Assembly (NCBI GenBank): GCA_947496065.1
Contig: CANMBF010000006.1
Location: 1-64,000, forward strand
DNA from: Bacteroidota bacterium
GTDB taxonomy: Bacteria > Bacteroidota > Bacteroidia > NS11-12g > UBA955
Direction of reading: 5' to 3'
Length of the DNA stretch: 64,000 nucleotides
In this document: positions 21,565 through 22,061 of the stretch, piece by piece
How the letters are laid out: each line of letters starts with the position of its first letter
Position numbering within the stretch: position 1 is the stretch's first letter
The notes under the pieces: model-generated
What the model was told of the DNA's origin: nothing
The model's database searches: none
What the model saw: only the letters and a program-made list of their open reading frames with translations
Made by a program: the position numbers and the translations under genes

Positions 21565-21611
21565 TGTCCCGTGTTAGAGTCCGAACGGATTTTCGGACAC
21601 ACCACGGGACA
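21565..21611. other. Nested inverted repeat of unknown role
   Basis: Outer arms TGTCCCGTG (21565-21573) and CACGGGACA (21603-21611) match perfectly. An inner hairpin (GTCCGAA with TTCGGAC) lies between them. It sits directly before the tRNA-Met repeat array. There is no gene within it; it could be an end of a lost mobile element or a transcript structure. Confidence 0.5.
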
Positions 21612-21619
21612 ACAAAAAA

Positions 21620-21800
21620 TAAAAAAACCGCCTCAAGGGCGGTTTTAATTTTTTGTAGCGGAGGGGAGTCCGCCGCGGCGGACCCGGTCTTAGGGTTATG
21701 AATAAGGGAATAAAAAAACCGCCTGAAGGCGGTTTTAATTTTTTGTAGCGAAGGGGAGTCCGCCGCGGCGGACCCGGTCTTAGGGTTATGAATAAGGGAA
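21620..21800 (-). repeat. Two tandem partial tRNA-Met units (90-bp period)
   Basis: Two nearly identical units precede the intact tRNA. Each has the tRNA terminator hairpin followed on the plus strand by the complement of the tRNA 3' half: acceptor 3' strand, T arm, variable region and the CAT anticodon loop (tRNA-derived parts 21656-21703 and 21746-21793). The 5' half is missing. In both, the T loop has been replaced by the 16-bp palindrome GTCCGCCGCGGCGGAC (21668-21683 and 21758-21773). They cannot make tRNA. Confidence 0.8.
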
Positions 21801-21801
21801 T

Positions 21802-21826
21802 AAAAAAACCGCCTGAAGGCGGTTTT
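21802..21826 (-). terminator. Terminator of the tRNA-Met gene
   Basis: AAAACCGCC-TGAA-GGCGGTTTT; on the minus strand it is followed by a T run (complement of 21802-21808). It is copied at about 21711-21736 and, with a slightly changed loop, at 21621-21646 as part of the tandem units. Confidence 0.8.
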
Positions 21827-21835
21827 AATTTTTTG

Positions 21836-21909
21836 TAGCGGAGGGGAGAGTTGAACTCCCGGCCTTAGGGTTATGAATCCTACGCTCTAACCACCTGAGC
21901 TACCCCGCC
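21836..21909 (-). tRNA. tRNA-Met (anticodon CAT)
   Basis: Read on the minus strand, a 74-base cloverleaf. The acceptor GGCGGGG pairs with CTCCGCT plus discriminator A. The D arm GCTC/GAGC, the anticodon loop TTCATAA, and the T arm GGGAG-TTCAACT-CTCCC are all complete. The A-C mismatch at the top of the anticodon stem is, from memory, also seen in other Bacteroidetes elongator Met tRNAs. CCA is not encoded. Elongator rather than initiator identity is inferred from the acceptor and D-arm sequence. Confidence 0.93.
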
Positions 21910-21930
21910 ATTGTTTATTTTAGAACTATT

Positions 21931-22016
21931 TTGAGAGTTGAACTCTCGTCCGCCTGCGGCGGATATGAATCCTACGCTTTAACACTCCCGATAGCTATCG
22001 AGACTATCCTGCTATT
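21931..22016 (-). pseudogene. Degenerate tRNA-Met copy invaded by two palindromes
   Basis: On the minus strand this keeps recognisable tRNA-Met blocks: the D-arm end and anticodon region (AAAGCGTAGGATTCATA) and a T arm (GAGAGTTCAACTCTC). The 3' side of the anticodon stem is replaced by TCCGCCGCAGGCGGA. The D loop holds a second palindrome, centred on CGATAGCTATCG (21989-22000). It lies between the promoter and the intact tRNA. It is not expected to fold as a normal tRNA. Confidence 0.7.
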
Positions 22017-22029
22017 TTTAATTGGAGTG

Positions 22030-22061
22030 CAAAAGTAAGAATTTTTTTAAAAATTGGCAAA
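22030..22061 (-). promoter_or_regulatory. Promoter for the tRNA-Met locus
   Basis: Minus strand: TTTG (22058-22061), a 20-base spacer, then TACTTTTG (22030-22037), matching TTG-N19-21-TAnnTTTG. Transcription would begin just before the degenerate tRNA copy and continue into the intact one. Confidence 0.65.

Follow-up and report, generated by a model that had tools for sequence, protein, structure and literature searches.

The window, that is, the whole stretch of 64,000 nucleotides that was analyzed, belongs to a draft genome (G000; 2.91 Mb, 79 contigs) and carries an intact tRNA-Met gene on its minus strand (Table 1). Two 90-bp units (21622-21711 and 21712-21801) lie 3' of this gene, each composed of a tRNA-Met 3' half and a terminator and 91% identical to the other; between them and the intact tRNA lies a third terminator. 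A tandem array of this composition had been described in the original prediction, where the partial copies were said to precede the tRNA; with the gene on the minus strand, their place is on its 3' side. Either unit was found by local alignment to contain tRNA-Met nt 32-75. In the shortest alignment of both units, AGTTCAACT (the 7-nt T loop with closing bases) is swapped for TCCGCCGCGGCGGA. The claimed replacement of the T loop by a palindrome was seen, but not exactly at the loop: closing bases are included, and the 16-nt palindrome first described spans one flanking pair. A search of the 2.91-Mb genome for the TCCGCCGCGGCGGA palindrome, suggested earlier as a check, returned just two sites, both in the array; these are the two most G+C-rich of the six perfect palindromes of ≥14 nt in the window. 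The terminator hairpin in the window and the palindrome both contain CCGCC/GGCGG, and the same palindromes also occur at unrelated places.

A fourth, degenerate tRNA-Met copy, overlooked in the earlier description, sits on the 5' side between promoter-like sequence and the intact tRNA-Met and carries two further swaps. When the genome was searched with the sequence of the intact tRNA-Met, only the gene itself and one remnant were recovered; with no second full copy in G000, the process that made the array had to keep the tRNA functional. No ORF remains in the array. Rfam matches to P9, STnc130 and SurA within it scored below the gathering cutoff and were dismissed. Beyond the distal terminator lies another long hairpin (GTCCCGTG...CACGGGAC; window 21566-21610); similar hairpins were noted in L084 (2010-2055) and L353, and the same type follows tRNA terminators elsewhere in the genus.

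Table 1. Features of the tRNA-Met array and its flanks (positions in the window).
Feature	Position	Strand	Basis or remark
Intact tRNA-Met (CAT)	21835..21909	minus	ARAGORN, Rfam; sole full copy found in genome
Terminator immediately 3' of intact tRNA	21802..21834	minus	G+C-rich hairpin and T run, present three times
Displaced tRNA-Met 3' part, unit 2 (nt 32-75)	21745..21793	minus	local alignment
Palindrome TCCGCCGCGGCGGA replacing T loop, unit 2	21759..21772		sequence
Unit 2 terminator	21712..21744	minus	sequence
Displaced tRNA-Met 3' part, unit 1 (nt 32-75)	21655..21703	minus	local alignment
Palindrome TCCGCCGCGGCGGA replacing T loop, unit 1	21669..21682		sequence
Unit 1 terminator, most distal; by position, the gene's original terminator	21622..21654	minus	related terminator follows G009 displaced half
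Degenerate fourth tRNA-Met copy, 5' of the intact tRNA and downstream of the promoter	21933..22013	minus	
Palindrome TCCGCCGCAGGCGGA (plus strand TCCGCCTGCGGCGGA) replacing anticodon 3' strand and variable region, fourth copy	21949..21963		
Near-perfect palindrome TCTCGATAGCTATCGGGA (plus strand TCCCGATAGCTATCGAGA) replacing D loop, fourth copy	21986..22003		
GTTCT, shortened version of GTTCTT, the motif preceding the nuclease ORF in related elements	21922..21926	minus	sequence
Promoter-like TACTTTTGC upstream of 5' displaced copy	22029..22037	minus	sequence

The tRNA-Met locus was compared at the species level across the genus (one genome per species; the loci of G014 and G004 are incomplete). 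In G009, the intact tRNA is separated by a GIY-YIG ORF from a displaced 3' half that bears a swap of the same type. The order in this genome is promoter, three swapped partial tRNA copies, intact tRNA, new terminator, GIY-YIG ORF, displaced half, terminator and another ORF resembling the first. The displaced half reads AAGGCCGGG[TCCGCCTAAGGCGGA]CTCCCCTCCGCTA, i.e. CCGGG[TCCGCCTAAGGCGGA]CTCCCC around the swap; its junction is that of the window units, and the terminator after it resembles the window's. The ORF runs into the displaced tRNA part, its final codons being tRNA-derived, and is the only gene in the G009 DNA between the tRNA repeats, where no integrase gene was found. While tRNA-Met is occupied by the ORF in G009, remnants were found in G000, G013, G015, G008 and G016, and the flanks of G006, G017, G018 and G019 hold no partial copies. 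Copies lie 3' of tRNA-Met in G000, G009, G013 and G015, and 5' of it in G000, G008, G016 and G009. In a pseudo tRNA-Met of G015 (L125; C1 343394-344011), the D loop and anticodon loop are both swapped for palindromes and the stems are intact.

An assembly artefact, which the original prediction had named as the outcome that would undo it, is unlikely. The array copies differ from one another, five further genomes of the genus (G008, G009, G013, G015 and G016) have swapped or degraded relatives at tRNA-Met, and the complete genome of UKL13-3 (CP012155, L181) carries 11 tandem 80-bp D-loop-swapped 5' copies of tRNA-Asn upstream of tRNA-Asn. Close to this tRNA-Asn array lie eight tandem copies of a GIY-YIG ORF.

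Palindromes were counted in the G000 genome and beyond. CGATAGCTATCG occurs 15 times in G000 versus 0 for the reversed pattern, and TCCGCC(N0-12)GGCGGA 6 times versus 2. The 18-mer TCCCGATAGCTATCGGGA was found in 23/70 genomes of the family (controls, 0); it is an interspersed repeat, with some copies outside tRNAs, within other repeats. Several palindrome copies lie in partial tRNAs adjoining an intact tRNA, namely tRNA-Val in G000 and tRNA-Ala, Asn, Met and Val in relatives, so that the proposed search for other tRNA genes with swapped arms also gave positive results. The swaps trade one hairpin for another and leave the adjoining bases as they were, and the exchange first noticed in the window is both real and recurrent. 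Two otherwise complete-looking genes, for tRNA-Lys (L162) and tRNA-Thr (L201), have the D loop swapped for a palindrome. A literature search on the palindrome letters found nothing.

A scan of 84,980 genomes returned at least 117 stretches in which a D loop is swapped for the palindrome; among the matches listed, 80 titles all read as Bacteroidota names. These loci correspond to 119 strand-loci, which are the basis of all counts of palindrome-found loci. The form is uncommon, the D-loop-plus-palindrome pattern being present in 1/395 genomes drawn from the phylum (G000 alone). An intact same-strand tRNA lies ≤1 kb downstream at 97/119 strand-loci; 12 have <1 kb of sequence there and 10 are without one. 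The 7-nt acceptor strands of displaced copy and intact tRNA are identical at 81/97, where random tRNA pairs average 2.6/7, and sixteen kinds of tRNA are represented. A GIY-YIG ORF occupies the spacer at 16/97 loci (spacing 352-549 bp). Spacing at the remaining 81/97 is 47-202 bp, bar L210 (406 bp, with a degraded ORF). The GTTCTT motif is present in 12/16 ORF-bearing spacers and in 11/81 ORF-less ones (0.5 expected).

A promoter-like motif precedes the 5' displaced copy at 61/97 loci, versus 12/328 control windows, and was found inside the spacer at only 6/97. This position before the displaced copy, and rarely in the spacer, is most simply explained if the displaced copy is the original 5' end of the gene and the intact tRNA is the rebuilt one. 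Since promoter-like sequence precedes so many of them, the 5' displaced copies are probably transcribed.

Loci were also collected through the nuclease alone. PF01541 matches were obtained in 67/69 family genomes, many of them UvrC. The family sample consisted of 71 small non-UvrC GIY-YIG ORFs, none chosen through the palindrome; UvrC-like and about 450-aa GIY-YIG matches and a few contig-edge fragments were left out, and L052 and L060, which were found via the palindrome, were excluded from the counts. A same-strand tRNA lies within 700 bp of 36/71 ORFs (by rough estimate, 1-2% expected by chance), and at 34 of these the tRNA is on the 5' side. A displaced tRNA copy was found beyond the ORF at 20 of the 34; a further 13 gave none when tested, and one has too little sequence. 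Half of the displaced copies (10/20) contain a new perfect palindrome, L084 being an eleventh case clipped by the alignment. Unswapped, perfect displaced halves exist as well (tRNA-Asn in L338; tRNA-Val in L314 and L332). Class-wide, a relative of one query ORF was found in 75/295 genomes; 25 of the 30 loci fetched adjoin a tRNA, 20 of the 23 with enough sequence have a displaced tRNA part, and 17 of these 20 have a new palindrome, mostly with core CCGATAGCTATCGG. Four tandem copies of a small GIY-YIG ORF were noted in each of G694:C12 and G255:C1, with spacing of about 404 and 322 bp, respectively. A second type of small GIY-YIG gene (L007 1829-2122; G000 C5) has no tRNA nearby; it follows tandem repeats with TTCGACT..CAGCATGAC, and the same CCCGATAGCTATCGGGA palindrome lies mid-repeat.

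All six scanned ORFs of related loci matched PF01541 (E 5e-10 to 1e-18), and VYI, Y.G, R28, H32 and E66, which are catalytic-type residues, are invariant across 11 such ORFs. The ORF is free-standing between tRNA parts, without intron or intein; Rfam detected tRNAs only, and no intron, in 5/5 element loci. Values of dN/dS were well below 1 in three of eight ORF pairs (0.096/0.98, 0.24/1.66 and 0.029/0.075), and in the other five pN was well below pS. Judged from these substitution patterns, the ORF is under purifying selection.

Nuclease trees were built from 28 and 47 rows, the latter without L391 (no clean ORF), L377 and the second L335 ORF (near copies). On the 47-ORF tree, tRNA identity requires 18 changes versus 30.5 when shuffled, or 17 versus 26.3 without 11 palindrome-selected rows, on a tree whose deeper branches are weakly supported and where near copies favor any clustering; host genus is clustered too, but less (22 versus 26.3). 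The TCCGCC..GGCGGA palindrome class, defined by eye before tree building, forms one branch (support 95 with 28 rows and 100/96 with 47 rows) and comprises elements of tRNA-Met and initiator tRNA-Met (initiator by our reading of the tRNA) in two genera. In G011, this class is at initiator Met and the CGAT..ATCG class is at tRNA-Leu. Nuclease subfamily tracks the tRNA target and, less sharply, the palindrome class. Displaced halves in the tRNA-Val nuclease clade are without palindrome in 4/4 cases, and so the palindrome is not obligatory. With these cases, the idea that the palindrome is always gained after insertion was not secured. Within the genus, palindrome number and nuclease number are uncorrelated (rho 0.07); G016, for example, has nine palindromes and only two GIY-YIG matches.

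From these comparisons, the array in the window is probably a worn remnant of elements that consist of one free-standing GIY-YIG nuclease gene of about 90 aa inserting into tRNA genes. Two layouts recur. In the 3' form, the order is tRNA, terminator, ORF, displaced 3' part and terminator; in the 5' form, it is promoter, displaced 5' part, ORF and intact tRNA; a palindrome often takes the place of one arm in the displaced part. We conclude that the 3' side of the window would be an ORF-less remnant of a TCCGCC-class tRNA-Met element, and the 5' side that of a second, older-looking one. The elements would form a family of free-standing, homing-type GIY-YIG genes in Bacteroidota, for which we infer both mobility and cleavage. 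The nuclease would cut a tRNA gene that has no insertion yet, within or close to the arm that is later seen to be swapped, and repair off the element-bearing copy would bring in the ORF along with a rebuilt portion of the tRNA. Through the direct repeats, the ORF could then be amplified or deleted, which would leave units of the kind present in the window. In the least certain step, the cut site is probably abolished by the palindrome, which would also break homology in the displaced half and protect the insertion. Points against this reading are the missing ORF in the window, the rarity of the D-loop form in the phylum sample, the lack of correlation between palindromes and nucleases within the genus, the palindrome-free tRNA-Val clade and the 13 family sites that gave no displaced copy; among the genomes compared, one per species, no empty/filled pair within a species was seen. 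The earlier suggestion of a palindrome-targeting element was right in spirit as to an element; palindromes do not appear to be its target, as the palindrome sits in the displaced half and its class follows the nuclease subfamily.

The alternatives were weighed against the same loci. A purely mutational origin, in which tRNA ends are duplicated in tandem, template switching at hairpins swaps an arm and the nuclease neighbors are incidental, would account for the exchange of whole hairpins within unchanged flanks. It also accords with sister nucleases that have perfect and swapped displaced halves, where the swap is separable from insertion. This origin is nonetheless rather unlikely: many tRNA genes and many hosts share the same palindromes, the TCCGCC class is a single branch of the nuclease tree, and small GIY-YIG genes adjoin tRNAs at the 25/30 class-wide loci given above. 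Template switching, invoked originally for the swap, does not suffice alone when a few identical palindromes recur at many tRNA genes across the phylum, but it is a possible route by which the palindrome is copied in. Selection of the copies for a role as RNA, whether as leader hairpins or as tRNA-half decoys made by transcription, would fit the promoter-like motif before 5' displaced copies (61/97) and the fact that the exchanged arms are those needed for tRNA folding. Such a role is very improbable given that copy number and presence vary among species of one genus, that displaced parts decay (G013) and that the nuclease gene explains the layout.

Mobile DNA of other kinds was considered as well. 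If the partial copies were attachment-site remnants of a larger tyrosine-recombinase island, a tRNA 3' fragment beside a rebuilt tRNA would be its classical mark. There is very little likelihood of this, however, as related intact cases have a few hundred bp between the repeats, encoding a GIY-YIG protein, 5' parts are displaced too, and arm swaps are not expected of islands; the D-loop form was found in no viral contig, whereas the palindrome by itself was found in 37 viral stretches. The palindromes might instead be REP-like hairpins moved by RAYT (Y1) transposases and landing in tRNA remnants by chance, as the interspersed copies of TCCCGATAGCTATCGGGA, also outside tRNAs, and a weak correlation (rho 0.30 across 69 genomes) with Y1 counts could suggest. 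We regard this as the least probable of the alternatives: 10/23 palindrome-bearing genomes have no Y1 (PF01797) match, 11/24 Y1-bearing genomes have no palindrome, and the palindrome lies in a displaced tRNA part by a GIY-YIG gene in 17/20 class-wide cases. The correlation is absent within the genus (rho 0.00), and a RAYT link was rejected there.

A broader reading of the nuclease-borne insertions is offered tentatively, as a possibility that we consider somewhat less than even. Bacteroidota may harbor a family of minimal selfish elements, each with a single GIY-YIG gene dedicated to one tRNA gene. Such an element would restore the tRNA that it disrupts and label the disrupted half with a palindrome characteristic of its nuclease; this cognate mark could not be cut and would block loss of the element by recombination. 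No description of such a bacterial element was found in the literature searched on GIY-YIG with tRNA genes, Bacteroidota, palindromes or truncated tRNA. If true, one account would cover the tandem arrays of broken tRNAs, the scattered short palindromes and the small GIY-YIG genes that stand as orphans in Bacteroidota, and tRNA-cutting homing nucleases would reach from phages to bacterial chromosomes. Intact target, displaced half and nuclease together form ready sets for studying how an element can invade an essential gene without its loss, and the same sets bear on the source of hairpin-for-hairpin exchanges.

Several known systems share parts of this layout. REP/REPIN repeats with their RAYT transposases are short palindromes scattered over a bacterial genome; the palindromes here have no RAYT link within the genus and lie in displaced tRNA arms beside GIY-YIG genes. 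Tyrosine-recombinase islands in tRNAs displace a part of the tRNA and rebuild a working one; unlike these, the present elements span a few hundred bp, carry a nuclease gene only, displace both 5' and 3' parts and have no recombinase that we could see. UPF0213-type small GIY-YIG proteins (PDB 1ywl) have the same domain with a weak sequence match (E 0.072), and we know of no tRNA layout for them. The closest known system is phage SegB, with the free-standing GIY-YIG homing endonucleases related to it. As described in PMC13096335, SegB of phages T4/T6 is a free-standing GIY-YIG nuclease that has its cleavage sites within tRNA genes and causes tRNA and nuclease gene to be amplified in tandem; it is a direct precedent for both, and the tandem copies in UKL13-3 may be compared with the latter. 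The motif reported there for SegB, RAWTSGAAC, resembles the T-loop consensus on the other strand, a likeness that is our own reading of the letters and not the authors'. A loop swap would remove a RAWTSGAAC-like site and break homology able to delete the element. The present elements are like SegB in having a small free-standing GIY-YIG gene adjoining tRNA genes. SegB, however, belongs to phages and has a cluster of tRNA genes as its target (PMC13096335), whereas the elements described here lie in bacterial chromosomes, within a duplicated tRNA gene, and have proteins of about 90 aa, one tRNA per subfamily and a displaced half that often carries a palindrome-swapped arm.
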